Source of the DNA: an uncultured Pseudomonadota bacterium
Lineage (GTDB): Bacteria > Pseudomonadota > Alphaproteobacteria > RF32 > CAG-239
NCBI GenBank assembly: GCA_949297185.1
Contig: CASFRM010000016.1
Span: forward strand, 1-40,803
Length of the DNA stretch: 40,803 bases
Direction: 5' to 3'
Shown here: in pieces, positions 9,899 through 36,991 of the stretch
How positions within the stretch are numbered: the stretch's first letter is position 1
Layout of the letters: the number at the start of each line of letters is the position of its first letter
Position numbers and translations under genes: made by a program
Notes under the pieces: generated by a model
Seen by the model: the letters and a program-made list of their open reading frames with translations, nothing else
What the model was told of the DNA's origin: nothing
Databases searched by the model: none

Positions 9899-10393
9899 AT
9901 GAAAAAGTTTTTAGGAATAGTCTTAGCTGCCGCTGCTTTGTCAGCTTGTGCTTGCTTTGATTCAAATGATGAACCGGTAAGAACCTACAGAACCGTCACT
10001 CAAGCTCCTGCCGATTGTGATTATTTTGATGGCAGAACTTGCTATAGATATACATATAGAAAAGTTCAGCAAGTTGCTCCGGTTCAAGAGTTTCGCTATC
10101 GCGAATCGAATCGATGCAGAAATTGCTGTCCGCCGGTTAGAATCGTTTCGGCACAAAACAATTGTGGCTGTGCTTCTTGCGGATGCCCACAAAATAACTG
10201 CGCTCCTACAGTCACCGAAACTAAAGAACCTGTAGAGGTCGTATACAAAAAAACAACTACCAGAACCGTATATGAGCCCAAAACTTCTTCGGAAGTTTCT
10301 TACGAAAGAGTTTCGTGCGAAGGAGCATCTTGCGGCAATAATCAAGTAATGTTTAGAAACGGTAATGCCGTTGTGGTTGAAGAAGTAAAATAA
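9899..10393 (+). CDS. Cys-rich lipoprotein of unknown function
   Basis: This 164-aa protein has a lipoprotein signal (MKKFLGIVLAAAALSAC) with lipobox LSAC and Cys17 as lipid anchor. The mature part contains many cysteines, with a dense cluster in NRCRNCCPP and NNCGCASCGCPQNNC (about 80-102). Tyr/Arg/Thr-rich strands follow (VVYKKTTTRTVYEPKTSSEV). The cluster could bind metal or form disulfides. GAGGGG precedes the ATG. The gene has its own candidate promoter and a strong terminator, so it is a single-gene unit. I do not recognise the family. Confidence 0.75.
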   Translation: MKKFLGIVLAAAALSACACFDSNDEPVRTYRTVTQAPADCDYFDGRTCYRYTYRKVQQVAPVQEFRYRESNRCRNCCPPVRIVSAQNNCGCASCGCPQNNCAPTVTETKEPVEVVYKKTTTRTVYEPKTSSEVSYERVSCEGASCGNNQVMFRNGNAVVVEEVK

Positions 10394-11313: not shown

Positions 11314-12186
11314 TTAGAAGTGGTATCTGACACCGAAGTTAATTTCGGTTATATATTTCATGAAGTCACCATCAATTTTGGTCCAGCGCCCCATAATTCT
11401 AAATGCTAGGTGCTTACTTAGCCATATCTCGGCGCCGCCACCAACACGCCAAGCCCATTTAGAATCAGTAAACTTTTCGCTTGTTGAGCGCAGGTTATTG
11501 TGCGAGGTGTCCTCATAGGCCATGACTTTTACCTTGGCTTCGGCATCATATTTGCCGACGCCGACAGATGCTATGAAGTCAATATTATCATTTATCGGAA
11601 TATAACCCAATAAATCAAGACCATAAACTTTGTAAGAAACCGTATATTCACCACGGGCAAATTCTGGATAATGGCTGTAGCTTTCGGTATAGGTAACCTT
11701 GTTATCGTCTAATGATGTTTGATAAAACGCCTCTAACCCAATATAACGAAGCGGGCGCCAACCAATATTAAGCGACAAGGAGTTAAAACTACGATCGAGA
11801 TCCTTGGTATCAGAAACATAGTCTTTACCATCGGTTAGTGCAGCATCCACCACAAAATCAACTGTTTTGTAAGATGAATAACCTAATACATAATCAGCAC
11901 CAACAGATATTTGACCGATTTCACGTTGCTTTTTAGGCTGCACCTTATGCGGAGCATAATAGTTTGTACCAGGAACATAATTATTGTTCGCAACTGGCTG
12001 CGCAGCACTATTGGCATTACCATAATTTGCTGTCGTCTGTCCGACACCAGCGTAGTTACCAGTATTGTAACTACCGCTATAACTTCCGGTATTATAGTAA
12101 CCGGCATTATAATAACCTCCGTAGTATTGAGCATAGGATACTACAGGGAACATACTTAATACCGTAATTACTAAAAATTTTTTCAT
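11314..12186 (-). CDS. Outer-membrane beta-barrel protein, Tyr/Gly/Asn-rich N-terminus
   Basis: This 290-aa protein has a signal peptide (MKKFLVITVLSMFPVVSYA) and then a low-complexity Tyr/Gly/Asn/Ser stretch (about 20-75, GGYYNAGYYNTGSY-like). An 8-10-stranded OmpA/Opa-like barrel follows, with alternating strands such as GLEAFYQTSL, YGLDLLGYIPI and WAWRVGGGAEIWL, and a C-terminal Phe (FGVRYHF), the classic outer-membrane sorting signal. It is paralogous to the upstream gene: both contain SxWAWRVGGG and end in a similar last strand. The 25-base gap suggests one operon. The function is unknown; the family covers adhesion, stability and porin roles. Confidence 0.85.
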   Translation of the reverse strand: MKKFLVITVLSMFPVVSYAQYYGGYYNAGYYNTGSYSGSYNTGNYAGVGQTTANYGNANSAAQPVANNNYVPGTNYYAPHKVQPKKQREIGQISVGADYVLGYSSYKTVDFVVDAALTDGKDYVSDTKDLDRSFNSLSLNIGWRPLRYIGLEAFYQTSLDDNKVTYTESYSHYPEFARGEYTVSYKVYGLDLLGYIPINDNIDFIASVGVGKYDAEAKVKVMAYEDTSHNNLRSTSEKFTDSKWAWRVGGGAEIWLSKHLAFRIMGRWTKIDGDFMKYITEINFGVRYHF

Positions 12187-12211
12187 ATACTAGAGTTTCC
12201 TTTCTTTGACC

Positions 12212-13099
12212 TTAGAACAAGAAACGAATACCAACCGAAAATTCTTGCAAATATTTGACTGCATCACCATTAACCTTTATAAAGCGATACATGCTTCTTA
12301 AGACAACACCTCTGGCGATGTTAAATTGTATACCTCCACCGACACGCCATGCCCACTGGCTTTCACTAAAATCGAAAGATGATGTATCGACCGCTGGTGA
12401 GCCGGTACCGCCTTCAAGATAATTCTTTTCAAATGTTGCTTCGTTGTCAAATTCATATTTTCCGAGACCGACGAAAGCCAAAAAATCAAAATAATCGGTA
12501 ACCGGAAGATATCCGATTAAATCTATACCATAAGCCTGATATTTACTGACGAAAGTGTTGACCATATGGTAATCTACATTGCCTATGGTGTCATTATCGA
12601 TTTGGGTTACGGTATTTTTGCTATATGAACGATTATAGAATGCTTCAATGCCAAAGTTTTTATGCGGCCTAGTTCCAAGAACTATTCCGATATTATCTTG
12701 GTCGTCTAGCATCAAATCATTAGGAACATCCAGTCCATTGACCTGAGAAAATATTATATCGTCAAAATTGGTAACTCCGTCGGCAGCCTTAAACTGAGAT
12801 TTATTATAATCGACACCGACATAATACTTGAAGCTTTTGGCTGTTTGAAAGGCTTTTTTAGTTTGACGTTCTACTTCTCGCAAATCTTTCTCGAGAGTTT
12901 TTTTGTAGCCGTCAAAAGTAGAATCGCAAGGACACATAACTGTTGTACCAAGCACTTCTGCTCCTTCCGGACCGTAGCGGTCATCGGGATTGCATGGACA
13001 CCATTCGACATGGTACAAATCGCCGTACTCGGTTGCATAAGAAGCCGAATACGGAAGCAAAAAGGCTACTAAAACGAGTAGGAGTCCCAACCTTTTCAT
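12212..13099 (-). CDS. Outer-membrane beta-barrel protein, paralogue of the next gene
   Basis: This 295-aa protein has a signal peptide (MKRLGLLLVLVAFLLPYSASYA). A short Cys-containing segment follows (HVEWCPCNPDDRYG ... TTVMCPCDST) with two CPC motifs, and then a charged helix (LEKDLREVERQTKKAFQTAK). The barrel domain begins around KYYVGVDYN and ends with VGIRFLF. Strands such as GIEAFYNRSYS, YGIDLIGYLPV and WAWRVGGGIQF align with the paralogue downstream. The N-terminal CPC pair is unusual for this family and may form disulfides in the periplasm. AGGGAT precedes the ATG. It is probably the first gene of a two-gene operon. Confidence 0.85.
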   Translation of the reverse strand: MKRLGLLLVLVAFLLPYSASYATEYGDLYHVEWCPCNPDDRYGPEGAEVLGTTVMCPCDSTFDGYKKTLEKDLREVERQTKKAFQTAKSFKYYVGVDYNKSQFKAADGVTNFDDIIFSQVNGLDVPNDLMLDDQDNIGIVLGTRPHKNFGIEAFYNRSYSKNTVTQIDNDTIGNVDYHMVNTFVSKYQAYGIDLIGYLPVTDYFDFLAFVGLGKYEFDNEATFEKNYLEGGTGSPAVDTSSFDFSESQWAWRVGGGIQFNIARGVVLRSMYRFIKVNGDAVKYLQEFSVGIRFLF

Positions 13100-13234: not shown

Positions 13235-13263
13235 TTGATAATTAACCCATTTGATGGTATTAT
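13235..13263 (+). promoter_or_regulatory. Promoter of the 893-aa protein gene
   Basis: TTGATA and TATTAT are separated by 17 bases. Transcription would start near 13270, which excludes an upstream in-frame start at 13235 and supports the ATG at 13301. Confidence 0.55.
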
Positions 13264-13300
13264 TTGTACATATAACATTGTTTTAGTAGGAGTATTTGAA

Positions 13301-15982
13301 ATGCCCATAAATGACAACGATACATCACCGGAGTTTGAAAATATAAACAATAATCAAGACCGCCGCGAATATGTAGGAAGAGAGTTTATGAGCGGAGAAT
13401 TTAGCTCCCGAAAAAGCTTTGATTTCTTTTTAGATCAATATCTTAAGGGAGAACTAGTTATTGATAATACACCTGAAAATAAAGAAAAACTAAAAGAACT
13501 CTTAGGCGGTGATCAAGGTATTTTGCAAGCACAAGAAAAAATAGCTGCCAAGGCGGTGAAAGATTTTGCTTCCGATCGCAAGGTCAGAGCCGGTGTGGCT
13601 ACTACGGGTATGGCGGTCAGTGAGAACATGGTCGAGGTAGACGCTAAAGAGCTGACAGATGCAATCTCCTCATATAAAAAACGCAGTAGCAAAGACGATG
13701 TTAACGATTTGATTAAAGAAGCTCAAATTGCAACGGCAACATATAGATTTGACGGCGGTTTCAGTATTAATAGACAATTACAACAAACATTGGAAAATAA
13801 GAAAGATAGCCTGTCTTTTTGGAAGGTCGGGCAAAAATTAAAACTGGAAAAGGCCATACGCGATATGGATCCTTCGGCATATTGGAGTACGAAAAAAACA
13901 AATGCCGGAAATTGGTTTACAAATCAATATTATAAAGCACGAGGTTGGTTCGCAGACCGAAATGATAATGCGGTCGAAAGAAACACTCAAAAACTTGAAG
14001 CGGTTATGAAACTCAAAAACATAGATGCGTCAACAAAGTGGATGAGTAAGCAATTTGGTAAAAAACTGGGCGCTAAGTTTAAGTTGTTTTTTAGAGCTTC
14101 GGAAGAGCGATTGCAAAAAAGAATATTAAAAAGAGCAAATCAGAGTGATTTGAAAAAATTGCAAGACAAAATTGCCGGATTTACCGCCGAAAACTCAGGT
14201 AACCAATATTTTGACAGAAAGCTTCTGGAAGCTCAAGCTAAAAGAGCTGCTCAGCTTGAGGCTATGAGTAAAGCCTGCACCGAACGCAGCTCAGAGTTAG
14301 AAAAATTAAAGGAAACAACTCTCGAATCATTGGGTGCTAGAGAATTTAACAGCAAAGATAAACCTTTGGATAAGCTTAATACAATATTGAATGACAAAGT
14401 TGCTAAGATTCAATATCAGTATGCCGAGGCCATGGCAAAAGACCCTAAATTACAAGCATACATGAAATTAAACGGAGGTCAGCTACCGGAAAATGAGTTG
14501 GTCAATCGCGAGATAATTACGACAGATGCCGTTTTGCAGCAGATGTGCAAAGATTTGGGATTTGAAAGTGCTGATGCTTTCTTAAAAGCACAGGGGCTTT
14601 CCGACAATGAAATTGAGAGCATAAAACAAAAAATAACCGCTAAAAAATCTGCTAATGAAGAAAAAACTGCGGAAGAAGAACAAAGCGATAATCAACAAGA
14701 AACAATTCATCAAGAACAACAAAATGCAACCACTTTAGAGGCTGAGGCAGCACAATATCAGAACCAAGCCGAAGAAGTAAAAGAAACCGCCCCAGCCGGT
14801 CGAGCTTCGATAATGGGGAGTGAGTATAATTATGATGATAGGTTCTTTAACTTTAGTCTTGATGGTTACGCCAAAGGTGATGGTGAGAATTTCTATACTG
14901 CCGAAAATGGCAACACCTTGGTTGTAGGAGCCAGCAAAGATAGTAATGATTATTTTATCTCAGCGCGTGATGCCGAGGGACAGAGACGCTCTCCGGAAGG
15001 TAACGAAATAGACATCTTGGTAAAACAAATGGTTGCCGATGGAATTACCAATGTTAATCTAAACGGTGATTTTGACGGTGCCACCAAAGAGGCAATGCTT
15101 CAAAAATTTGCCGAGAATAACATCGTAGTAAATAATCGCGAAGAGGTAGAAAAAGAGGTTGCTCTGTGGAAAGAAAAACAACCACAAGAAAAGGTGCTAG
15201 ATCAAGAAGTTAAACAAGCTGAGCCTGAGGTTAGACCTACAAATGAGGAGACAAAGCAACCAGAAACAGAGGCTAAGACATTAGAGGAGCAAGCCAAAAA
15301 CAACGAAACAAATGCAAATACTGCAGAACAATCACCTAAGGTTCAAACACCAAATGCAGATAAGGTAGCGGAAGAAAAAATGAGCATGGAGAAGGTTATG
15401 ATTAATGCAGTAACCAATTCGGCCTCACAAGAAGAACAAATAAAAAAGATAAAAATGATTGAGAGTATCCAAAAAGGAGAAAAAATAGCTTTTGCCGAAA
15501 TTAATGATACATTTGGTGCAAAATCTGCAGAAGCGGTATTTTTAAGAGAAGTTGCCGCGGCTAAAGAGCTTCAGGGATTGAACGAATATCTGGACAATAA
15601 AGAATGGATTAAAGACGAAAAAACGAATGCCGGTATAAGGGATGTTCACGATAGTAATAAGGTTACTATCGTTTCGACAGTAGCAAAAATGGCAGAAAAA
15701 TTTAAGGATAAGGATATAAAAGATGTTGAAAGTGATGATGCATTTAAATTGCTGCCTAAATATGCTCAACAAGGGGTTAAGAATTTGATAAGTGTTGAAA
15801 ATTCCAAAGATTTGACTCCGAAACAAAAAACTACGTTCCGTGGGCAAATTTTAGGTAAAGTTGTTGAAGGAAAAATGTCTACCATCAATAAAGCTAACTC
15901 CGGCAAAAACAGAGCTAAGGCAGCAGAAAAAATTAATTTAAGTGAAGTAGTAAGAAGTCACAATTCTGCTCGACGAGCTTGA
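13301..15982 (+). CDS. Large charged, partly coiled-coil protein of unknown function (893 aa)
   Basis: I do not recognise this protein. The start is the ATG at 13301, with TAGGAG upstream and the promoter at 13235-13263. It has no signal peptide or membrane segment. Residues 1-420 are helical and Lys/Glu-rich. Residues ~440-500 are Glu/Gln low complexity. Residues ~505-610 look globular (YDDRFFNFSLDGYAKGDG ... VADGITNVNLNGDFDGATKE ... FAENNIVV). That last pattern loosely recalls large polyvalent protein-associated domains (LPD7-like), seen in mobile-element and effector polyproteins. Residues ~630-690 are another Glu/Thr/Asn-rich linker, and the C-terminal ~180 residues are helical. The architecture resembles that of the 1234-aa protein at 36992. 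A structural or secreted effector role is possible but unproven. Confidence 0.7.
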   Translation: MPINDNDTSPEFENINNNQDRREYVGREFMSGEFSSRKSFDFFLDQYLKGELVIDNTPENKEKLKELLGGDQGILQAQEKIAAKAVKDFASDRKVRAGVATTGMAVSENMVEVDAKELTDAISSYKKRSSKDDVNDLIKEAQIATATYRFDGGFSINRQLQQTLENKKDSLSFWKVGQKLKLEKAIRDMDPSAYWSTKKTNAGNWFTNQYYKARGWFADRNDNAVERNTQKLEAVMKLKNIDASTKWMSKQFGKKLGAKFKLFFRASEERLQKRILKRANQSDLKKLQDKIAGFTAENSGNQYFDRKLLEAQAKRAAQLEAMSKACTERSSELEKLKETTLESLGAREFNSKDKPLDKLNTILNDKVAKIQYQYAEAMAKDPKLQAYMKLNGGQLPENELVNREIITTDAVLQQMCKDLGFESADAFLKAQGLSDNEIESIKQKITAKKSANEEKTAEEEQSDNQQETIHQEQQNATTLEAEAAQYQNQAEEVKETAPAGRASIMGSEYNYDDRFFNFSLDGYAKGDGENFYTAENGNTLVVGASKDSNDYFISARDAEGQRRSPEGNEIDILVKQMVADGITNVNLNGDFDGATKEAMLQKFAENNIVVNNREEVEKEVALWKEKQPQEKVLDQEVKQAEPEVRPTNEETKQPETEAKTLEEQAKNNETNANTAEQSPKVQTPNADKVAEEKMSMEKVMINAVTNSASQEEQIKKIKMIESIQKGEKIAFAEINDTFGAKSAEAVFLREVAAAKELQGLNEYLDNKEWIKDEKTNAGIRDVHDSNKVTIVSTVAKMAEKFKDKDIKDVESDDAFKLLPKYAQQGVKNLISVENSKDLTPKQKTTFRGQILGKVVEGKMSTINKANSGKNRAKAAEKINLSEVVRSHNSARRA

Positions 15983-16027: not shown

Positions 16028-16050
16028 GCCCCGAGTATCCTCGGGGCTTT
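16028..16050 (+). terminator. Terminator after the 893-aa protein gene
   Basis: The perfect stem GCCCCGAG/CTCGGGGC with a TATC loop is followed by TTT. Confidence 0.75.
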
Positions 16051-16239: not shown

Positions 16240-19200
16240 TTATATTGCGCATTGAATTGTATTATCTGATCTATACGTACACTGGGTTGAATCTCTTTGA
16301 CAGTGTACATATTTGTATCCACCTACTGTCATACTTCCTCTGGTAGGTGTTCCGTATGAAACATTCATTTCTGTACCTGTTCTGTGAGTACCATTTTTAT
16401 CTATGCAGAAGGTCCAATAGCAACTGGCGGCATCAGTGCCATCATATCCTGCACAATATCTAACTATTGTGTCTGTAACAGGATATGTTCTTTTAGAACA
16501 TGTACATTCGCGCCAATCATAGTGAGATATGTTATCAGAATCTGTACATTTTTCACTGGCATTATTTAATGAACATTTAACACTATCTGTTGTTATCTTA
16601 CCATTTGTTCCATCTTGGCCTTGTTCATGTCCATATCTGAAGCATACGGGAGCTTCTATTTTTCCTTGCTGTAAACCAGGTGTTTTTAAGTTAGGATCTC
16701 CATCTTTTGACCAATTATACGTGTATACATTGTCTATGCAACTCTTATCTTTGTTATACTTCTTTGCATCACAAAGGCATTTTTCGTATAACTTGAATTC
16801 ACCTCCGACATCACTGCTATCAACCGCACTGCTTGCCCAAGAATTAGTTAAATCCAATACTTTTCCTCCAGCAGTTAGCATACTCTTGCCATTCAAACTT
16901 TGACTTAATGTGTAACACTCTGTTTTAGTGCGATAATTAGATACAGCAGTTTTATCGTTAATACATTTTGCATAAGCTTTTTTAGCGCAGTCAAATGTTA
17001 TAGTAGCATTCATCCAATGTCCACACTGTGTTTGTATTTTGGATTTTACAGCTGTCAGTGTTTCTTTATTTGTTAAATCTGATATCGAATCATATGATCC
17101 CGAGAATATTTTTGTATATCCAGTCATCGGCGTACAGCAAAGAGATTTGTTTGGAAAATAAAAACTTCTTATTCCAATAGGACCTATGTTTTGGCAGAAG
17201 CGCATACCAGAAGAAACTTCTGTAGAAACACTAGCTCCTTTATTATCACAATATGCTTCTGCATCGGCTGCTATTAGGCCTATTATGCTTGTATCAAAAA
17301 TAGAAGGATCACAACTACATGATGAGTAAAATTTTTCGCTACTATCAGGAAGCAGGCAATATTGCGATGACTTTATATGTATATTATCATTACATCTACT
17401 ATCACTAATATTATAGCCAAACGGACATTTGCAGCTGGTAGCCAGACCTGTTTCGGACTCATGTATTGTTCCGTCTGATGTTGCTTCTATATCTCTACAA
17501 ACATTGCCATCATTTGGTACGGCAACATTATCCCCTCCTCCACATACTACTGTTTCATCTCTGCTACAGACGCACTTTGCGTATAGTTTTGTTCCATTGA
17601 CATCACAATATGGTATATCTGTTTGATCAAATTGAAAGATTGTTGATTTACAATCTAGTTTATACTGTGGTTTACAAATACATCCTTTGTAAAACGTATC
17701 ATTAACTTTGAATCCTCCTTCGCTGGTTGGAACGACACCTCTGACCGCACATGCCCCCTCTGCTACATTCACCATAGCTCCGGTTTTTGCATTGCAATCA
17801 GCGACAGAAACGGAATATTCCGGTGCACAATCGCAACCTTTGTAAAACTTGGAAGCGTTTATTTGGCAATAATCATTTTCATAGCCGGAGGGGAGAACCT
17901 CACCAGCAGATGCTCCTGAACACGAATATTTGTAATCTGCAGCACATTCGCAACTCTTATAGTATTTGGTTCTTTTTTCTTGAGTCGAGGTAGAGGTTTC
18001 TCCGGTATCAAGATCGGTGGTGGTTGTAGTTGAAGTTTCTACAACTTCGCAGTAGTCATTGCCACTGGGCGGAACAATTCCCTTATTACCGGTTTCTTCC
18101 GCCTGACAGGTGTATTTATATTTAGTGCGATCACACTCGCAAGTAGAATAAACCGTGGTACCAAAACTGCCATCAGAATTCAAAGGTGTGCATTTTTTGC
18201 CTTTGGTAGCATTCTGAGTATCGCAGGTTTTGTAACTGCTTGGGCAAGGACATGATTTATATAATTTATTGCCATTTTCATCGACACAAGATTCACCAAG
18301 ATACGCAGGATCATAACCGGAACATGAATATTTGAAGCCATTGGTCAAACAATTATTTGTATCTCTGCAGGAAGCATATTTAACAACGCTGGTGGAGGTT
18401 GATGATCCGTCTTCACCGGTACCGGTTGTGACAGAAGTGCAGCTTCCTCCCTCACCAATTTGAGCTGAAGTACAAACCTTGTAAGTTTCTTCTTGGAACG
18501 GTGTACAGGTAGCGGACGAAGCATTGCACTCACTCCAATAGGTAACCTTGCTGCCATCGGCATTAGTTTGAGTACATTTATCTCCGCTACCGCCTTCGCA
18601 AGCTTGCCAGTTGCTAGGACATTTACACAAATATTTTATGGTCTGTTTGCCTTCGGAATCGGTCGATACACAAGGAGAATAACTTTCTTGATTGGTATCA
18701 CAGGCAGTAACATGTCCCGGCGTACATTCGTTGGTTTCCGGCTTGGTGCATTCTTTGTAATATTTTACACCGTTTAGTTCGCAATAGTTGCCAACACCTA
18801 CCTCACCTTCACCGCAAACCTTGTCATAACCATTGGCGCAGGTACAAGATTCATAATAAGTTGTATTATCTCTGGTACAAGGATTAACTCCTATTTGCAA
18901 AGGACCAGAGCAGGTTTCGGTTGCCAAAGATGTACAATTCGTTTGAGGTTTGCAACTCTTATAATACGACACACCTTTGAGGTTGCATGGTTCGCCCTCT
19001 CCGACCTGTCCTTCAGGACAAATTTTATATTCTTGAGGACAAGCACAGGCCTTGTAGCCTCCAACATTTCCTTGATTATCTTGGCAAGCCTGACCAACCG
19101 GAATTAGCGGAGCATCGCATTTTTCGGTATATTCCCAGGTACACTCAATAACCGAACACTGGTAGTATTTCTTGCCACAACCGTTATCTTTCCATACACC

Positions 19201-22200
19201 GGTGGGCTTTTTGCCACCGGGGCATCCATAGTAGTTATCAGCCCAGTTTTCGGGTAATTCATCGGGCACACATTGACAAGACTTATACTTGCCGTTGCAA
19301 GCGGTGCCGACGCCTTGATAACGACCGCTGCCGTCTTCATCACAAACTTCGGTATATTCGGCTGAGCATTCACAATAAGGATACAACGGTAAGCTCTGTC
19401 CTAGTTTTAGATATCCTTCGTTAACCGCTTCGTTAACCGAAGAATCTCTATTCATAAAGTCTGAGGTTATTTCTTGCTGGCATGCATTGCCTGAGAGCAA
19501 ACCGCCACAGTTGTACTTATGATGCTTATAAGCACTGGCACAAGAACATTCTTTCCAGGTCTTTTTACCATTAATTATTACATAATCGCCGGTCAAATCA
19601 TGACGGACGCCGCAGTTTGCTGTGGTATATTTAAACTCGGTCGGGTCATAATAGCAGTTGTAGGCTCTCTTATATCCGGTATCGGCTCCGTATTCGCACA
19701 ACTGAACCGAAATTCCGGGACCATGTTTGGAAGTACATTCGTTTTCGCTGTTAACTACTGATGCAATAGATAAAGAAGTAACTTTTTCTCCGTTTATCAT
19801 AACATTTTTGCCGCATTCACTCAACTCTTTGAGAATTTTGCAAGCTCCGTCAAGATAATGCGGACGACCGTTTTTCATCAGTGTCGAACCGTCACCGTAT
19901 TTGCAGAAATTACTTCCATCCGGTTGATCATAAGGATAATCACAAGGATCGGAATAGGTTGAGCTATCACAACTTACTTGCCATTTTTCTGCACCATCTA
20001 AGGTGCATTTCTTTATTTCTGCTCCGGAGCCATAGGTGTTTACCAACTCTTGATATTCTTTTGAAATATCCTCAATAGCTATGGTTGAGCTTTCGTCTTG
20101 GCATTCGGCAAAGCTACATGCGCTGTAATAGGTGATATCACCGGAGCGGCATATGGTAGCATTTTCGGCCGGCAATTGATTATCTTCCGAACACCTTTGA
20201 AAATATTTAGGACAATAACATGGATAAACTAAGGTATTATTTGCAGAGCAGTAAGTTTGACTTTTGAAACCAAATTTGGCGCCATTTCCCATCTCCATCT
20301 TGCACAAAGCAGCGGTTGGGGTAGCTTCTTCGGAACTTAGATATCTGTAGGCTCCGGTTTGGGCGGCATCAGCCAATACTGCCTCACATTTGGCAACGCA
20401 GTCACGATATTTGAGATTATCGTTGCCTTCCAAATCACAGGTTATTCCGCTGGGCTCGGCAGTATAATCATTTGATTTTATTTCTTTATTGTCATCTTCA
20501 ATAGTAACATTTTGAATCTCGCAATAGTCCTCATCTCCTTCACTCGATGCTGGATCATAATAAGTGCTTAAGCATTTGCAAACTGCACGTTGGTTGGCGT
20601 TTTCATCATTACAGATATAGTCAAGTTCACCACCGATAAACTGACAGTCTTCCTCACTATAATAAAGTGGGCGGTCAGAAGGGCAAAGACGCATATAATC
20701 AGCATATTTGTAGTTGCCAATATCATAGCGACAAACAGTACCAGATCCTGTATAATTTCGAATACACTCGCTGTACTCTTCAGTCATACTGCCATCTTCG
20801 TTAAACCCAAACTTGTTACTACACCAATCAATTAGGGTTTCAAAACCTATTGGGCATGCACATATATACCTTTCGGACTTATCAGATGCCATTACGCACA
20901 TTTCAGGATTCGTCACCCCTCCCCTGATTTCTGCAGGATAAGCTCCTACATTAGGGCAATCATTGATTGTCTCAGAATACTCACGAGCAAAAGGAGAACC
21001 GCAAACATAATTACAATTAGAGTATTTTGCAATGTAGTTGCCATTTTCATCTCTATCGTACTCGCATTTTAATCCACTACGTTGCTTATTCTCATCATCA
21101 CATGTAGCTCCGTAGCTTTCAGGACATTTGCAAACATATCTCTTTCCGCTTTCGTTATATACACCGCTTTCTGCATCTGGTATATAACATTCATCGGCCA
21201 CGGGCGCAGATACTTCATCTCCCTCTACTTTACAGTCATCTAATGTAGTAGCCGTATTTACTCCTTCTGGGCATTTGAGAACAATCCCTCTATATTTTTT
21301 ATCGCCCTCATCACCAGTCTGGACATATAAAACATCGCACGATTCTCCTGATCCAGCATAGTCATCACAATTTTCAATATTTTTTTCCGCACAAAATTCG
21401 GTCTTAGTCTTATAGTCGAATGGACAATCGAAACTTTCGTATACCGTTTCATTATATTCACTATTTGCCGGATAAGTTTGACAAGTTTCTCCAACTCCGA
21501 CAACAAAGCCGCTAGCGCATCTATCTATATCTTCGTGGCCACTTGTATTTTTGAGTCCGAACGCATGGTTTTCATAGCAAAAATCTTTTTTAGTTTTCCA
21601 ACCCGTCGGGCATGTACATCCGGCATAGGTACCTGTTGTACTATTAGCACCACTTTGAAATGGACATGAGCTTGCTGTTCCATTTACTAAGGCACAAGCT
21701 TCGTCTGCCGAGTTTTTGTCTGTGTAATAGTTTGGGCAATACAAACATATGTTTTTTAATACATTCTGACCCGAGGCATTTTTTTCCACACAGCTATCAG
21801 GCTTTGGAGCAGGACTACCGGCAAATGATTTGCAATTAGGAGAACTTGTATAATAATAGCCAACCTTATATTGATCTTCCAAAGATTTACAGGTTTTTTT
21901 TCTAGCCCACTCACTTGTAGCACATTTGTATATGCTATTGCCGTCGGTATCTTTTTCTATTGTGCACGGATCTGAACCACAATAAGCCTGTTCCAAACAT
22001 TGGTCATAGTCTGGTTTTCTTGCACAGTAATCTTCTTTGGTTATAAAATCTGAATCACATGTGCATTTATATACGGTTGTTGTATCCCCCCCAACGCCAA
22101 TATCATTGTCGTATTCACAGCTCTCATATTGACCACATTCCGCTGTTGTCGGTGCGTCATCAAGATTGAAACCTTTACAATAAAAACCTACATAATTTAC

Positions 22201-22902
22201 TTTATTAGTCTCTGTGTTTTTACATGCTATAGGAGCCTTTGTATTATAGCTATCAACTGGACCAAATACTTTTCTTGCATCTTGATTATTATTTATCAAA
22301 TCACTACATGAAGACAATGTTGATCTAACATCGCATGTGAAAGCCAAATAGAGATTATCGTCATTTCTATTACCTGGATCATATGTAATACACGGAAAAT
22401 AATTAAAATTCTGATCTACACCTCCATAATCCATATCATTTAATACACCGTTGCAACTTTCATTCTGTATGTTATATCTTGCGGCTGTTGTTTCTCCTTT
22501 ACATTGTGGATATGTAAGATAATGTTTACCTTCTGATGGATCTTTATACCGATAGTAAACGAGAATATCGGAACCCTTAATACAATCGAATTCATCATTA
22601 TAAAGTCCATTATACCTATCTATGTTGCTCGTAGTATAATTTGCGAGGAATGAAGCACTTAACCCTGTATCATCGCACTCAGGAGTTGTGGATTGAGGTT
22701 GGGCGGGAGATTGAGATGCCGGAGGCGTAATTCCGGAATCTTGAGAGCTACCGCCTGGAATCGGGGTTTGGTTATAGGTGGTGGCACGAACAACATAATT
22801 CGTGTCTGATAACGAGGTGACTGCTGCATAGCCTATGCCGTGCAGACTTATTAATGCAGAAATACCTAAAACTATCTTCCATATTCTCGACATTTTGCCC
22901 AT
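16240..22902 (-). CDS. Giant secreted cysteine-rich repeat protein (2220 aa)
   Basis: I do not recognise the family. A signal peptide (about 1-27, hydrophobic core KIVLGISALISLHGIGYAA) is followed by a Ser/Pro/Gln linker (about 45-73). The rest consists of cysteine-spaced units, most regular between residues ~1080 and 1900. There the consensus is roughly C-x-CP-x-x-YK-x-x-C-(x)8-15-G-x-x-C-(x)5-15-YYKSC, repeated at least 15 times, for example CACPQEYKICPEGQVGEGEP followed by C...YYKSC. The N-terminal half has more degenerate units such as CKCLSTYYDP. Disulfide-rich tandem modules suggest an extended surface or secreted fibre formed in the oxidising envelope, perhaps for adhesion or protection. 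There is no C-terminal anchor or autotransporter barrel. GGGG four bases before the ATG supports the start. The gene stands alone between terminators. Confidence 0.8.
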   Translation of the reverse strand: MGKMSRIWKIVLGISALISLHGIGYAAVTSLSDTNYVVRATTYNQTPIPGGSSQDSGITPPASQSPAQPQSTTPECDDTGLSASFLANYTTSNIDRYNGLYNDEFDCIKGSDILVYYRYKDPSEGKHYLTYPQCKGETTAARYNIQNESCNGVLNDMDYGGVDQNFNYFPCITYDPGNRNDDNLYLAFTCDVRSTLSSCSDLINNNQDARKVFGPVDSYNTKAPIACKNTETNKVNYVGFYCKGFNLDDAPTTAECGQYESCEYDNDIGVGGDTTTVYKCTCDSDFITKEDYCARKPDYDQCLEQAYCGSDPCTIEKDTDGNSIYKCATSEWARKKTCKSLEDQYKVGYYYTSSPNCKSFAGSPAPKPDSCVEKNASGQNVLKNICLYCPNYYTDKNSADEACALVNGTASSCPFQSGANSTTGTYAGCTCPTGWKTKKDFCYENHAFGLKNTSGHEDIDRCASGFVVGVGETCQTYPANSEYNETVYESFDCPFDYKTKTEFCAEKNIENCDDYAGSGESCDVLYVQTGDEGDKKYRGIVLKCPEGVNTATTLDDCKVEGDEVSAPVADECYIPDAESGVYNESGKRYVCKCPESYGATCDDENKQRSGLKCEYDRDENGNYIAKYSNCNYVCGSPFAREYSETINDCPNVGAYPAEIRGGVTNPEMCVMASDKSERYICACPIGFETLIDWCSNKFGFNEDGSMTEEYSECIRNYTGSGTVCRYDIGNYKYADYMRLCPSDRPLYYSEEDCQFIGGELDYICNDENANQRAVCKCLSTYYDPASSEGDEDYCEIQNVTIEDDNKEIKSNDYTAEPSGITCDLEGNDNLKYRDCVAKCEAVLADAAQTGAYRYLSSEEATPTAALCKMEMGNGAKFGFKSQTYCSANNTLVYPCYCPKYFQRCSEDNQLPAENATICRSGDITYYSACSFAECQDESSTIAIEDISKEYQELVNTYGSGAEIKKCTLDGAEKWQVSCDSSTYSDPCDYPYDQPDGSNFCKYGDGSTLMKNGRPHYLDGACKILKELSECGKNVMINGEKVTSLSIASVVNSENECTSKHGPGISVQLCEYGADTGYKRAYNCYYDPTEFKYTTANCGVRHDLTGDYVIINGKKTWKECSCASAYKHHKYNCGGLLSGNACQQEITSDFMNRDSSVNEAVNEGYLKLGQSLPLYPYCECSAEYTEVCDEDGSGRYQGVGTACNGKYKSCQCVPDELPENWADNYYGCPGGKKPTGVWKDNGCGKKYYQCSVIECTWEYTEKCDAPLIPVGQACQDNQGNVGGYKACACPQEYKICPEGQVGEGEPCNLKGVSYYKSCKPQTNCTSLATETCSGPLQIGVNPCTRDNTTYYESCTCANGYDKVCGEGEVGVGNYCELNGVKYYKECTKPETNECTPGHVTACDTNQESYSPCVSTDSEGKQTIKYLCKCPSNWQACEGGSGDKCTQTNADGSKVTYWSECNASSATCTPFQEETYKVCTSAQIGEGGSCTSVTTGTGEDGSSTSTSVVKYASCRDTNNCLTNGFKYSCSGYDPAYLGESCVDENGNKLYKSCPCPSSYKTCDTQNATKGKKCTPLNSDGSFGTTVYSTCECDRTKYKYTCQAEETGNKGIVPPSGNDYCEVVETSTTTTTDLDTGETSTSTQEKRTKYYKSCECAADYKYSCSGASAGEVLPSGYENDYCQINASKFYKGCDCAPEYSVSVADCNAKTGAMVNVAEGACAVRGVVPTSEGGFKVNDTFYKGCICKPQYKLDCKSTIFQFDQTDIPYCDVNGTKLYAKCVCSRDETVVCGGGDNVAVPNDGNVCRDIEATSDGTIHESETGLATSCKCPFGYNISDSRCNDNIHIKSSQYCLLPDSSEKFYSSCSCDPSIFDTSIIGLIAADAEAYCDNKGASVSTEVSSGMRFCQNIGPIGIRSFYFPNKSLCCTPMTGYTKIFSGSYDSISDLTNKETLTAVKSKIQTQCGHWMNATITFDCAKKAYAKCINDKTAVSNYRTKTECYTLSQSLNGKSMLTAGGKVLDLTNSWASSAVDSSDVGGEFKLYEKCLCDAKKYNKDKSCIDNVYTYNWSKDGDPNLKTPGLQQGKIEAPVCFRYGHEQGQDGTNGKITTDSVKCSLNNASEKCTDSDNISHYDWRECTCSKRTYPVTDTIVRYCAGYDGTDAASCYWTFCIDKNGTHRTGTEMNVSYGTPTRGSMTVGGYKYVHCQRDSTQCTYRSDNTIQCAI

Positions 22903-23025
22903 AGTACCCCTTTAATTGTATTTTATTTTAAATGCAATCTTGCTACATGTTAGCATAACTTTACAAGCTTTGGCAATGCTATTTTTCTATTTTTGCAACA
23001 TTATTTCTGAAATATAGACAAAATT

Positions 23026-23055
23026 AAGCCCTCATCTTTGGGGATGAGGGCTTTG
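23026..23055 (-). terminator. Terminator of the efflux operon
   Basis: The stem AAGCCCTCATC/GATGAGGGCTT lies about 17 bases beyond the acrB stop codon, with a modest T-rich tail on the minus strand. Confidence 0.7.
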
Positions 23056-23071: not shown

Positions 23072-26000
23072 TTACTGCTGTGATTTGCGCTTGCCTACCG
23101 TTATCTGGTACAAGCTCTCAAATAATACATAAAGCAAAGGTATTACTATCAAGCCAAGTGCCGTTCCTAACAGCATTCCGTAAAATACCGGAACACCTAT
23201 CGCTACACGGCTGGCTGCACCGGCACCGGTGGCGATAATCATCGGGAACACACCTAAAATAAAGGTAAAGGCTGTCATCAATACCGCTCTGAACCTTTCT
23301 TTGGTGCCGACCATTGCCGCTTTGACCAATGTTGAACCTTTTTCATGCTCCTCTTTGGCAAACTCGACAATCAAAATCGCGTTCTTACTGGCAAGACCAA
23401 CCAACAGTATCAAACCTAATTGAGCGTAAATACTCAAAGGTAAACCGGTGATAAACAATCCGACCAGAGCTCCCAACATAGCAACCGCAACCGAGGTTAA
23501 CACCGGCAGAGGCGTAATCCAACTCTCGTACTGGGCGACCAAGAACAAGTATCCGAATATTACAGCCAAAGTTATCAAATATCCAATCTGACCTTGTGAG
23601 GATTTTTCTTGGTAGCTGATACCAGACCACTCATAACCGAATCCTTCAGGCATGGTTTTAGCCAATTCTTCAACAGCAGCCATAGCCTCACCGGTACTTA
23701 CCGCCGGATTTTGTACCGCGGTTATCGAGGCCGACGGATATTGGTTATAACGGCTTACTACACGCGGTGATAATACTTTGCTCAAGCTTAGCACGCTATC
23801 CAACGGTACCATCTCGCCATTTTCGCTTTGGACATGCAAATTCTTTATCGAATCGATATCTTTGCGGTTCTTCCAGTCAGCTTGTATCATAACTTTGTTA
23901 ACTTGCGTACCGAAGTTTACATCGTTGATATATGCAGAACCTAAGTAATACTGCAAGGTTGAGAATATGCTACCGACACTTACTTTCATGGCTTCGGCTT
24001 TTACTCTGTCTATATCTACGTAGATATTCGGGGTTTTGGCCGTATAGGTCGTATAGGCATAGGAAATTTCCGGCAGAGCATTCATCTTACCCAAAAAGGC
24101 CATCAATGCTGCTTCAATCTCTTGCGGATCATCAGTATCCATAGACTGTAAACGGAAATCCATACCACCGCTCATACCAAGACCCATAATTGCAGGAGGC
24201 TCAAACATTTGAACATCAGCTTCGGAATATTCGCTTAATTTTGCTCTGAGCCTGTTCATTATGTTGGTGGAATAGAGTTCATCGCCCTTTCGTTCGTTCC
24301 ATGGTTTTAACACTGTAATAACCATAGCAACGTTCTCACCGGTACCACCAATCATACTAACACCGGTAATTGTCATTACAGCATCAACACCTGGTTCATT
24401 TTTGATAACGGGTATTATCTTATCAATAAATGCTTTAGTACGTTCTCTTGATGCACCTTCGGGAAGTTGAATATTACCCATAATCATACCTTGGTCTTCT
24501 GAGGGTATAAACGAAGTTTGACTGATGTTTAAGATACCGGCAATTACAATCAATGCCAAACCATAAACGACGGCTACTACTCCAATCTTACGACCAAAGA
24601 TACCAACAATTCCAGCATAGGTATCACGGCTCTTATTAACGACATGGTTAAACCAGAACAAAGGACCATGTTCCACCGGCTTTAGCGGACGCAATATCGT
24701 CGCGCAAAGTGCCGGAGATAGGGTCAGAGCATTTAGTGCTGAGAAAGCAACAGATACAGAAATCGTAACCGCGAATTGTTGGTATATCTTACCGGTAATT
24801 CCACCCATAAAGCCAACCGGTACGAAAATTGCCAACAGAACCAAGGTCGTTGCCACAATAGCTCCGGAAACTTCGCTCATGGCTTTAATAGTGGCTTCTT
24901 TTGGTGTGAGGTTCTCTTGCTCCATAAGCGCCAAAACGCGCTCGACCACCACAATAGCATCATCTACCACCAAACCGATTGCCAAGACCAAACCAAATAG
25001 TGTCAACATATTTAAGCTGTAGCCCAAAGCCAGCATTACGGCAAAAGTTGCAAGCAAAGATACCGGAATGGTTAAACTCGGAACCAAGGTTGAACGCCAG
25101 TCTTGTAAGAAAATATAGCAAACAAATATAACCAAAGTAAAAGTGAAAATTAAGGTTAATACGACTTCCTCAATTGAAGCAGTAATGTATTTGGTTGAGT
25201 CATAACCAATCAAATAGTCTACCCCCTCGGGAAAGTTGGCTTTTAAGCGTTCCAACTCGGCTTTTAGATTATTCATTGCATCCAAAGCATTGGCTCCGGT
25301 TAATTGGTTAATTGCTATTGCCACATTGGGAACTCCGTTGTATTTTGAGGCAGCACGATAGCTCTCTTCACCAATTTCAATTCTGGCAATATCTTTTAGT
25401 TGTACCAAACCACCCTCTTCGGCCGTACGAACAATAATGTTCTTAAAGTCTTCAACCTCATTGATACGACCTTGGGTTTGCAAAGCATATACAATTTGCT
25501 GTTTGCCGTCTCCGGGCATTGAACCTACTTTACCTAATGAAGGTTGGTAGTTTTGACCTTCAATCGCTGCAACTATTTGCTCCAACGGCAAATTAAGCGC
25601 CGCAATCTTGTCGGCATCTAACCATACGCGCATACTCAATCTGGCAGAATATACATTTACTTCACCAACACCATCTACACGTGCCAAACTATTCTTCATA
25701 TTGTTTTGTACATAGTCTGCCAATTCAGAGCTGCTTAGGCTGTTATCGGGTGAAAATACCGAAACAAAGCCTAAAATATTCGATGAACGACTACGTACGG
25801 TCAAGCCTTGTCTTTGCACCTCGGTAGGTAACATTGAAGTGGCTTGTTGAATACGGTTTTGAACCTTTACTTGTGCCATATCGGGATCGGTTCCTACCTT
25901 AAAGGTAATAGTCAACTGATATGAAGAGTCTTCTGATGAGGAAGACATGTAAATCATATCCTCAACACCGTTTACCTGCTCTTCCAACGGAATACCGATG

Positions 26001-26182
26001 GTTCTGGCCACAACTTCTGCCGAAGCTCCGGGATAGGTTGCCGAAACAACAATCTCCGGAGGAGTAATCTCTGGATATAACGCAATCGGAAGCGAAAATA
26101 CCGATATCAATCCGGCCAATGATAAAACGATGGATATTACCATCGCAAAACGAGGGCGTTCAATAAAAATCCTTGAAAACAT
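23072..26182 (-). CDS. acrB: RND multidrug efflux transporter, AcrB/MexB (HAE1) family
   Basis: This 1036-aa inner-membrane proton/drug antiporter has the first membrane helix after [20 protein letters not shown], the two porter-loop regions, and twelve expected helices. The proton-relay aspartates are in [20 protein letters not shown], matching Asp407/Asp408 of E. coli AcrB, and the relay lysine is in [18 protein letters not shown]. The length is normal for the family. It would form a tripartite pump with the adaptor encoded two bases upstream. No outer-membrane TolC-type gene is in the operon, so the channel must be encoded elsewhere. The symbol is given at family level; the substrate range cannot be read from sequence. 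Confidence 0.95.
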
Positions 26183-26184
26183 TC

Positions 26185-27342
26185 TTATTTAGCCTCCTCT
26201 GTCTGATTTGAGACCAAGCTGGCTCTTACTTTAGAGCCATCTTTTACTTTTTGCAAACCGCTAACTATAATCTTTTCATTACCTTCAAGACCTGATAAAA
26301 CAATTTGCTTATCTTCAAACAATCCGTCTAACTGTACTCTCCTTTCGCTGACATTGCCTTCTGAATCTACAACAAAGACATAAGAGCCGTTAGTATCTTG
26401 CATTACTGCCGCCGGTGAAATAATTATTGCCGGTGTCTCTTTGGCTGATGATAATATTACATTTACATAGTTACCGGCAACCAACATTCTGTCTTGGTTT
26501 GCGTACTCCAAATAAATCGGAATGGTTGCAGTATTTTTATTTACTTCGTTGTTTACGAAATAAGAAACCATGTTTTCGTTTAGAATACTACCATCAGGCA
26601 ACACCAAACGTGTTTTTAGACCGCTGGAACCCAATTTTTTGAAAAACAGATTGTCTTTATCAGGAACCGAGAATGCTACTCTTATCGGCGAAGCTTGAAT
26701 GATGCGAGCCAAGGTTTGGGTATTGGAGCTTACATAGTTGCCTTCGGTAACCTCTGCTTTACCTATTAAACCGGTTATGGGGGCTTTAATTTCAGTGTGC
26801 TCCAAATCAATTTGAGCTAACTCTAAATTGGCTTCGGCTTGAGCAACTGCGGCTTTGGCTTGTAAATAAGCACTCTCTGCAGTATCTAAGGTAGATTTAG
26901 ATGCATATTGTTGACTGCTTAGGGCTTTTTGTCTTCTGTAATCCCTTTCGGTTTTAACCAAGTTGGCCTTGGCACTGTCGAGTGCAGCTTTACTCAAATC
27001 TACATTGGCAATATATCTATCTTGTTCGATGACAAACAATATATCGCCTTCTTTTACAACTGATCCTTCTTGAAATAAAACTTTATCAACATAACCTGAA
27101 ACCTGAGGTATCAGGTCAACACTCTTTATAGCCTCTACCGATGCTATATAATTTCTTTGCGGAGAAACATCCGTCTTTACGACATCTTCTACCAACACAT
27201 GCGGAACGGTCATTCCTGCCCCGCCCATCATTGAGGTTACAGGTGTAAGTTTAGCTTTTAGGTACCAACCTATGCCGATACACAACATTATAACCACAAA
27301 ATTTAGTATAATTTTTCTTTTTTGAACCTTTACTACTTGCAT
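26185..27342 (-). CDS. acrA: RND efflux periplasmic adaptor (membrane fusion protein)
   Basis: This 385-aa adaptor links the RND pump to an outer-membrane channel. The N-terminal membrane anchor ([18 protein letters not shown], about 11-28) has no lipobox, so it is anchored by a helix rather than lipid. The barrel-sandwich half-motif [20 protein letters not shown] (about 79-98) is followed by the alpha-helical hairpin ([20 protein letters not shown], then ... [20 protein letters not shown]) and [16 protein letters not shown], then the beta-barrel and membrane-proximal domains. It is translated as an operon with the regulator (3-base gap) and acrB (2-base gap). Confidence 0.94.
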
Positions 27343-27345
27343 CTT

Positions 27346-27960
27346 TTATTTCTCCACTCTAACACCATTCATAATCATATCAAAACCTTGAGTAATCATA
27401 TAAGAAAGCGTCTTATTTTGTTTAACTCCCGATATATATTTATCGATTGTACCTTTCCAAAAGGCGGTAAGGACTTCTGAAAGTTCTTGAATATCGGTAT
27501 TTTGCTTTAACTCACCATGTTCTTTCAAGAACAGTAGAACTTCTCCCAATTTTTTATCGGGAAGTTCACATAGTTCTCCCACCTCGGACCATACTTTATC
27601 AAATACGGCTGTAGACCATTCCATACGGTAAACCATAAAAAACAGAAATCTCTTAAAATCAACATCCTTTTCAATAATGTTGGCACGACATACAACTGCT
27701 TGTCGCAGTTCTTCAATCGTTGTGGGCATTCCTTGCGGGTATAGCTTCCTTTGAGAGGTTATTTTTTGCACTATAATCGCGCTTATTAAGTCTGTTTTAT
27801 TACGAAAATGCCAGTAGACAGCTCCTTTGGTTAGGTTAATGCGACGAGCTATCTCGTCAAATGTTGTCCTTGAGAAGCCTTTTTCGTAAAAAGTCTGCAA
27901 GGCAGAATCGAGAATCGCCTGTCTTGTCTGTTCGGCATCTTCTTTGGTTTTTCTTGCCAT
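27346..27960 (-). CDS. TetR/AcrR-family repressor of the efflux operon
   Basis: This 204-aa regulator has an N-terminal TetR helix-turn-helix (about 10-57): RQAILDSALQTFYEKGFSRT, TTFDEIARRINLTKGAVYWHF and RNKTDLISAI. The C-terminal ligand-binding domain is of AcrR/TtgR type (FMVYRMEWSTAVFDKVWSEV, AFWKGTIDKYISGVKQ). It is the first gene of the operon with acrA and acrB, so it should control its own synthesis. A palindrome resembling the E. coli AcrR site overlaps the promoter just upstream (27986-28010). Confidence 0.92.
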   Translation of the reverse strand: MARKTKEDAEQTRQAILDSALQTFYEKGFSRTTFDEIARRINLTKGAVYWHFRNKTDLISAIIVQKITSQRKLYPQGMPTTIEELRQAVVCRANIIEKDVDFKRFLFFMVYRMEWSTAVFDKVWSEVGELCELPDKKLGEVLLFLKEHGELKQNTDIQELSEVLTAFWKGTIDKYISGVKQNKTLSYMITQGFDMIMNGVRVEK

Positions 27961-36958: not shown

Positions 36959-36991
36959 TAAGGCATTCATTTTTATTCGGTGAGGTTTCAA

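Follow-up and report, generated by a model that had tools for sequence, protein, structure and literature searches.

What kind of protein is encoded by an open reading frame (ORF) of 2220 codons in an uncultured alphaproteobacterium when 173 of its residues (7.8%) are cysteine, and where would such a protein work? The ORF begins with ATG and runs uninterrupted at positions 16240-22902, on the minus strand, of a 40,803-nt stretch of contig CASFRM010000016.1 (assembly GCA_949297185.1; order RF32, family CAG-239), which is called the window hereafter. We conclude that its product is a real, lineage-specific giant protein built from cysteine modules, which belongs to a new sequence family and to a known general kind. 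It is probably exported by the Sec route and, as a chain of tandem disulfide-bonded modules, would serve as a stalk, fibre or adhesin that is extracellular or on the surface. Large proteins made of disulfide modules are common in animals and protists and rare in bacteria.

Export and the four-cysteine unit

The protein gave no match in Pfam (to E = 1), among PDB sequences (to 1) or in NCBIfam (to 0.01). A first-pass annotation of the window had described a secreted, cysteine-rich, modular protein of 2220 residues without a recognisable family, and the ORF, the signal peptide and the library searches all agree with it; the strand, minus, was missing there. Export of the protein is well supported by its N-terminus, and N-termini resembling signal peptides are also present in the 15 other listed orthologs. 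The start of the mature chain follows the motif [AG]-[VI]-x-x-[ILV]-x-[DE] in 16/16 orthologs and in 3/10 divergent giant homologs, whereas the next 500 residues are highly variable, and this conserved mature start may act as a signal for sorting or assembly. Beyond residue 40, hydropathy over 19 residues peaks at only 1.07, so there is no clear second membrane segment, as expected for the protein without a membrane anchor that had been described. The genome (1.51 Mb, 44 contigs, 94% complete) contains one copy according to the protein search, and a unit profile made from this protein gave 9 matches to E = 1, all within the ORF.

The repeated unit spans about 30 residues and reads C(a)-P-x-x-Y-x(2-3)-C(b)-x(5-16)-G-x-G-x-x-C(c)-x(3-15)-Y-Y-x-x-C(d). 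A short linker leads to the next a, and where it is a single residue, as is often the case, a C-x-C signature arises. A strict pattern of the unit, composed after the protein had been seen, matched 11 times, compared with means of 0.12 (maximum 2) in 1000 full shuffles and 1.7 (maximum 6) in 1000 Cys-keeping shuffles. The profile made from the proteins of other genera alone detected 13 units above 8 bits, with 0 in 300 full shuffles and at most 1 in 300 Cys-keeping shuffles. In the regular block, at amino acids (aa) 1177-1862, about 17 units can be counted by eye if degenerate ones are included. At least 15 units had been claimed at first, and by these three counts the repeat is real, but the literal signature is rarer than was stated (C.CP occurs 8 times and YYKSC twice). 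Successive units at aa 1286-1317 and 1353-1385 were read to contain four Cys each, the preceding Cys not being counted. The unit alignment used for wider searches (A5) was itself chosen by the four-Cys pattern and is no independent test of the number of Cys per module. As evidence against a regular repeat, a profile of seven units from aa 1177-1588 reached only 5.7 bits at best in aa 1588-1900, which is no more than chance (shuffle maxima 7.0 and 8.6), and 9.1 bits at best in aa 250-1176, where two units exceeded 8 bits (shuffle maxima 7.9 and 6.9). Because this profile is at or barely above the shuffles outside its training block, the units within the protein must be far diverged, and beyond the central block the repeat consists mostly of Cys spacing together with Tyr and Gly. 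The AlphaFold model of aa 580-1177 has many short strands and a mean predicted local distance difference test score (pLDDT) of 84.7.

Distribution in the family and order

The protein is not the one-off that it appeared to be at first sight. A match was found in 25/35 genomes of the genus, the own genome counted. Fifteen sequences align over 3525 columns, and almost every Cys of the core is invariant; identity in the core is 0.99 for Cys, 0.73 for Tyr and 0.71 for Gly, and 0.44 for non-Cys residues overall. The core alignment matched 45/152 genomes of the family (10/16 genera), and the unit alignment matched 68/153 genomes of the order (12/17 genera). In a class-wide sample, 4/385 genomes matched, all within the own family and one of them being the own genome. 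The 17 relatives are metagenome-assembled genomes labelled Alphaproteobacteria (13) or proteobacterium (4), and one of them has a gut source on record, roe deer cecum. The bacterium of the window probably comes from an animal gut, and a gut habitat is probable for the whole lineage. Among the listings of literature on RF32, CAG-239, cysteine-rich proteins and gut Alphaproteobacteria, there was no description of these proteins.

In the other genera, 20 stretches carry shorter proteins, often with a signal peptide, in which a 'C..LGYT..C...CP(F/Y)D..Y..C' module and runs of units are followed by dissimilar C-terminal parts. When 10 of these proteins were compared with Pfam, two gave a domain above the cut-off, namely Lcl_C (5e-9) and Pectate_lyase_5 (1.5e-5), the latter described as a 'putative pectate lyase-like adhesive domain'. 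Two more had matches below the cut-off (YdcK solenoid, 1.4e-5, and Lcl_C, 0.0016), and six had no such Pfam domain. Lcl itself is an adhesin. A surface-fibre or host-interaction role is plausible for the giant protein because 2/10 related proteins carry surface-type domains and its ends vary fast. The Lcl_C-type region of one unit protein (L108:3548-5605, minus strand) also matches phrog_4245, of unknown function (E 2.5e-11).

Eight genomes, seven of genus g7 (G066, G068-G070 and G072-G074) and one of g15 (G136), have 36 to at least 52 unit matches each, and the unit matches listed are spread over some 17 separate loci in G070 and about 19 in G136. Several ORFs of G070 differ in length yet are equal in unit score, which suggests that one cassette is repeated and joined to various C-terminal parts, perhaps as a family of variable surface proteins. 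The unit profile groups many secreted proteins that the libraries leave largely nameless, and it also predicts specific disulfides.

Cysteine parity and proposed disulfide pairing

The number of Cys in the mature chain is even in 15/16 orthologs, with totals of 164-212 (naive one-sided probability 2.6e-4), and in 10/10 divergent giant homologs with complete ORFs (114, 126, 82, 86, 86, 144, 90, 32, 68 and 48). The pooled count is 25/26 giant homologs, whose best-hit identities are 24-87%; the naive chance of at least 25/26 is 4e-7, a value that ignores shared ancestry. The 26 counts are not independent trials, since the homologs have a common origin and every whole module brings four Cys. The totals of close relatives differ by two (198/200, 204/206, 202/204). 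The cleavage site was set by pattern for the 16 orthologs, and at residue 24 and then by reading for the divergent homologs. L073 with its copy L051 (169, odd) and L074/L054 were left out because they reach a contig end; L053 and L045 duplicate L072 and L064, and L060 was kept despite an early stop (164, even).

Paired changes of cysteines were also observed. C1288 and C1306, the a and c of one unit, are jointly replaced in L069 and L071. The clade of the window lacks both C953 and C976, the b and d of another unit, whereas the other clade has both. In two members of a single genus, L116 and L141, the a and c Cys of one unit are jointly replaced. These three events, the only ones used, were checked on alignments or sequences and fit 1-3, 2-4 bonding within a block. 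Disulfide pairing in the exported protein is thereby indirectly supported, and the earlier description of the protein as disulfide-rich gains indirect evolutionary support from the Cys parity and the three paired events. Other candidates were discarded. A census of pair-loss patterns (ac 3, bd 1, ab 4, cd 10, ad 19, bc 0) consisted, in the cases inspected, mostly of wrong register or Cys outside units, and its ac case in L069 was not a clear unit. A local-profile census of Cys losses contained mostly edge effects, and the columns Y1617 and V1700 of P0001, seemingly single changes, look like shifted neighbours and were not counted.

Rates of evolution along the protein

The rate of evolution was compared in one genome pair, the window and its nearest relative L058. 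The ratio of nonsynonymous to synonymous substitutions (dN/dS) was 0.03 for aa 1177-1590, 0.08 for aa 590-1176 and 0.17 for aa 1591-1862, and rose to 0.34 for aa 1-589 and 0.26 for aa 1863-2220. The adjacent RND gene has a dN/dS of 0.024, so the middle of the giant protein is equally conserved. A conserved centre with fast ends suggests a shaft with contact surfaces, and relaxed constraint would look alike. The guanine plus cytosine (GC) content is 0.388 for aa 1-590 and 0.361 for aa 1862-2220 versus 0.444 for aa 1177-1590. The AT-rich ends noticed in the first-pass annotation are therefore present, but the 'mosaic growth' read into them is unproven, the ends being fast-evolving.

Comparison with known systems

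The closest functional parallel that we found is TraA of Myxococcus xanthus, whose Cys-rich repeats are proposed to form a rigid, disulfide-stiffened stalk of beta-hairpins for presentation at the cell surface (PMC3325183, PMC12045341). Like the giant protein, TraA (TIGR04201) has a signal peptide, a part that varies and an extended region of Cys-rich tandem repeats. On the other hand, there are 173 Cys here compared with 'more than 70' in the TraA region, and the taxon is different. Neither TIGR04201 nor MYXO-CTERM gave an NCBIfam match at or below 0.01 in the protein, nor any to E = 1 in seven relatives, the presence of these models in the library being presumed; and the PA14 domain of TraA was not found, as no Pfam family matched the 2220-aa protein to E = 1. 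Having no Pfam match, and so no PA14, and no NCBIfam match, the protein is not filed under TraA. It plausibly works like such a stalk.

A superficially EGF-like spacing had also been noted earlier. EGF modules have six Cys, with disulfides 1-3, 2-4 and 5-6. The likeness lies in the C-x-C followed by an aromatic residue and a closing Cys, and in the proposed 1-3, 2-4 bonding, which would be that of the first four Cys of EGF. It goes no further than spacing: a Pfam EGF family was matched to E = 1 neither by the protein itself nor by 14 orthologs or 10 relatives outside the genus. Each unit here has four Cys, and the unit profile has no match among PDB sequences to E = 10; 15 members searched against Pfam gave only LZ3wCH (0.15) and Phage_lambda_P (0.33), in one member each. 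The Lcl_C and pectate-lyase-like adhesive domains, either of which stands above the cut-off on 2/10 unit proteins of other genera, are both absent from the giant protein itself.

Proposed function and alternatives

We hypothesize that the giant protein is exported by the Sec system as tandem modules of about 30 residues, each of which would hold four Cys (a-d) in the bonds a-c and b-d, with short linkers joining the modules. The chain would then be stiff and resistant to proteases, with about 86 disulfides along it. It would work outside the cytoplasm, most likely as a stalk, fibre or adhesin that the cell displays on its surface or releases from it. In this view the conserved centre would be the structural shaft, and the fast N- and C-terminal parts would be the contact or recognition parts, which may adhere to host, protist or plant particles.

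Several observations weigh against this explanation. The protein of the window is itself odd (173 Cys), the sole odd one of the 26 giant homologs. Compared with L058, its core is equal (113 Cys), its N-terminal part has ten fewer and its C-terminal part has 23 instead of 22; because only the C-terminal part gains one, the odd Cys lies in aa 1863-2220 (window 16243-17316), and it may be a real free Cys, an inter-chain bond or a sequence error. Gain or loss of a whole module, with four Cys each, keeps parity, and the homologs are related by descent. Other Cys-rich ORFs, counted with a crude cleavage site, are even in 18/31 cases, or in 15/28 without the three giants already counted, which is no bias. 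L072 lacks six core Cys (five gaps, one Val) and L066 lacks two (gaps), with no clear module pairs among them. For aa 1119-1777, where the most regular units lie, the AlphaFold model is of middling quality (mean pLDDT 73.4, predicted template modelling score 0.33). The dS values in the rate test are high (0.95-2.8). Beyond the Sec peptide, no surface anchor or secretion signal was recognised in the protein. Finally, DsbB was found in 0/1 (the own genome), 0/35 and 0/152 genomes, with the control found in 6/14 genomes including Caulobacter, and VKOR in 0/1 and 0/152, with the control found in 3/14; the 152 genomes are those of the family. Among them, 109 reach 90% completeness with contamination no higher than 5%.

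The last point bears on how the cysteines would be oxidised. DsbA was sought in the own genome, where two proteins of this type matched (E 2.4e-22 and 4.6e-4), one with an N-terminal hydrophobic segment and CGFC and the other with CTHC. Of the DsbA/DsbB system that the first-pass annotation suggested checking, the DsbA half is thus encoded, but neither DsbB nor VKOR was found in the family. One study reports that cysteines tend to be excluded from the exported proteins of obligate anaerobes, that a significant excess of even Cys numbers in a bacterium generally goes along with DsbA plus DsbB or VKOR, and that a clostridial DsbA is partner-free and recycled by glutathione disulfide or ergothioneine (PMC12453122). 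From the negative searches it follows that this lineage joins very Cys-rich exported proteins to no recognised DsbA partner, and oxidation would proceed through DsbA with some other electron acceptor. We put forward, as a tentative possibility, that a probably anaerobic gut family uses an undescribed four-Cys module as a general building block of exported proteins, which would be oxidised without DsbB or VKOR by a new route of DsbA recycling. The module would serve in many shorter secreted proteins (about 17-19 different listed loci in single genomes) and in giants of 1,191-2,559 residues, which would hold about 16-106 disulfides. If this is true, the family would run counter to the reported exclusion of Cys by obligate anaerobes, and it becomes a testable question what re-oxidises DsbA in a probable gut lineage in which both known membrane oxidants were not found.

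That neither DsbB nor VKOR was found in any of the 152 genomes would also suit a metal- or redox-buffering protein in which reduced Cys bind metal, in the manner of the C-x-C motifs of metallothionein, perhaps tied to the efflux pump encoded beside it. The very high Cys and C-x-C content is in keeping with this, and an RND homolog adjoins the gene in 14/17 other orthologous loci (two loci end at a contig edge, and L042 is without the pump). We nevertheless consider such a buffer quite unlikely, since the three events alter Cys in twos and not in threes or fours, the total is even in 25/26 giant homologs, Tyr and Gly are conserved alongside Cys, and His is scarce (0.8%). Moreover, the pump is AcrB-type, scoring 346.7 against a cut-off of 701.45 for the CusA/CzcA heavy-metal model, and a terminator-like hairpin parts its gene from the giant gene. 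That hairpin, present in 14/15 loci with the RND gene (the window counted), also makes it highly improbable that the protein is a pump accessory replacing the outer-membrane factor in the operon, as its place directly downstream of the RND gene in those 14/17 loci might indicate. An accessory role would further have to account for the locus L042 without a pump, for the lack of an RND match near the 10 divergent homologs, each with 11.6-19.9 kb of fetched DNA around it, and for rates that differ strongly at the ends of the protein.

A periplasmic or envelope structural protein, forming an unexposed, disulfide-crosslinked coat like the chlamydial cysteine-rich envelope proteins, is rather unlikely. 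The only signal is of the Sec type, a route through the outer membrane was neither identified nor searched for, and two outer-membrane barrel genes lie nearby, all in favour of a coat; but the fast ends and the surface-type domains on 2/10 related proteins point outward, and crosslinks between molecules would not demand even Cys numbers. Small Cys modules in tandem could also be an array of protease inhibitors or protease-resistant decoys (Kazal/TIL/EGF-like) that the cell releases as protection in the gut, and the C-x-C and G..YY..C spacing is superficially EGF- or Kazal-like. This seems very unlikely, because no such Pfam family, Kazal and TIL included, was found to E = 1 in the protein, 14 orthologs or 10 relatives, the unit profile matched no PDB sequence to E = 10, and there are four Cys per module compared with six in EGF or Kazal. 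An exported stalk, fibre or adhesin is the probable explanation.

Genomic neighborhood

The coordinates of the features are collected in Table 1. The giant gene is probably its own transcription unit. The hairpin upstream was seen in 15/18 homologs, that is, in the 14 loci mentioned above and in L067, where the upstream gene is off the contig; the stem sequences differ among the homologs, and this count was made without a shuffle control. In the 12.9-kb region there are 18 terminator-like sites compared with a shuffle mean of 9.2.

Table 1. Features of the giant gene and its surroundings in the window (all on the minus strand).
Feature	Position	Strand	Basis
Terminator-like hairpin downstream of the gene	16028..16047	-	Hairpin scan
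Coding sequence, 2220-aa cysteine-rich secreted protein (stop codon 16240-16242)	16240..22902	-	ORF and translation
Fast-evolving C-terminal part, aa 1863-2220	16243..17316	-	33% identity to nearest relative, dN/dS 0.26
Conserved cysteine core, aa 590-1862: 113 Cys, 108 invariant among aligned orthologs	17317..21135	-	Ortholog alignment
Most conserved tandem four-Cys units, aa 1177-1590	18133..19374	-	95% identity to nearest relative, dN/dS 0.03
Fast-evolving N-terminal part, aa 39-589	21136..22788	-	aa 1-589: 44% identity to nearest relative, dN/dS 0.34
Mature N-terminus, aa 27-38 (AVTSLSDTNYVV)	22789..22824	-	Motif comparison; putative function
Signal peptide, aa 1-26, MGKMSRIWKIVLGISALISLHGIGYA/AV, cleavage after GYA	22825..22902	-	Read from sequence
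Sigma-70-like promoter match, TTGCCA-18-TAACAT, TG before second hexamer	22947..22976	-	Consensus match alone
Intrinsic-terminator-like hairpin between RND gene and giant gene	23026..23053	-	Hairpin scan
TetR, membrane-fusion and RND (AcrB-type) neighbours, outside the protein, directly upstream	23072..27960	-	Homolog comparison

A palindrome, AAATGCATTT, lies about 30 bases before the start codon in 10/17 relatives, copies of the core ATGCAT being counted. All 10 ORF-proximal copies of [AT]AATGCATT[AT] in 681 kb precede the giant gene, the DNA having been fetched mostly around that gene. In the window there is no exact copy at that place (22925-22940), where a degenerate form is present, and L060 has a different palindrome (ACGCGT) at the corresponding place.

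Farther away, at 36980-40696 (plus strand), an ORF of 1238 aa has tandem PKAKTTAPKSVVEEQ-like repeats at about 38500-39000 and no Pfam match to E = 0.01. A protein of 164 aa (9899-10393, plus strand) starts in the manner of a lipoprotein and contains a dense cluster of Cys (CRNCCPPVRIVSAQNNCGCASCGC), with no Pfam or NCBIfam match to E = 0.01. Two tandem outer-membrane beta-barrel genes (OMP_b-brl) lie at 11314-13099 on the minus strand, and both are beside the giant gene in L038, L039, L040 and L043. Between them and the giant gene, a convergent ORF of 915 aa without a family match (13235-15982, plus strand) is 91% identical in L038 but only 31-34% identical in L039, L040, L041 and L043, where its counterpart has the same location.

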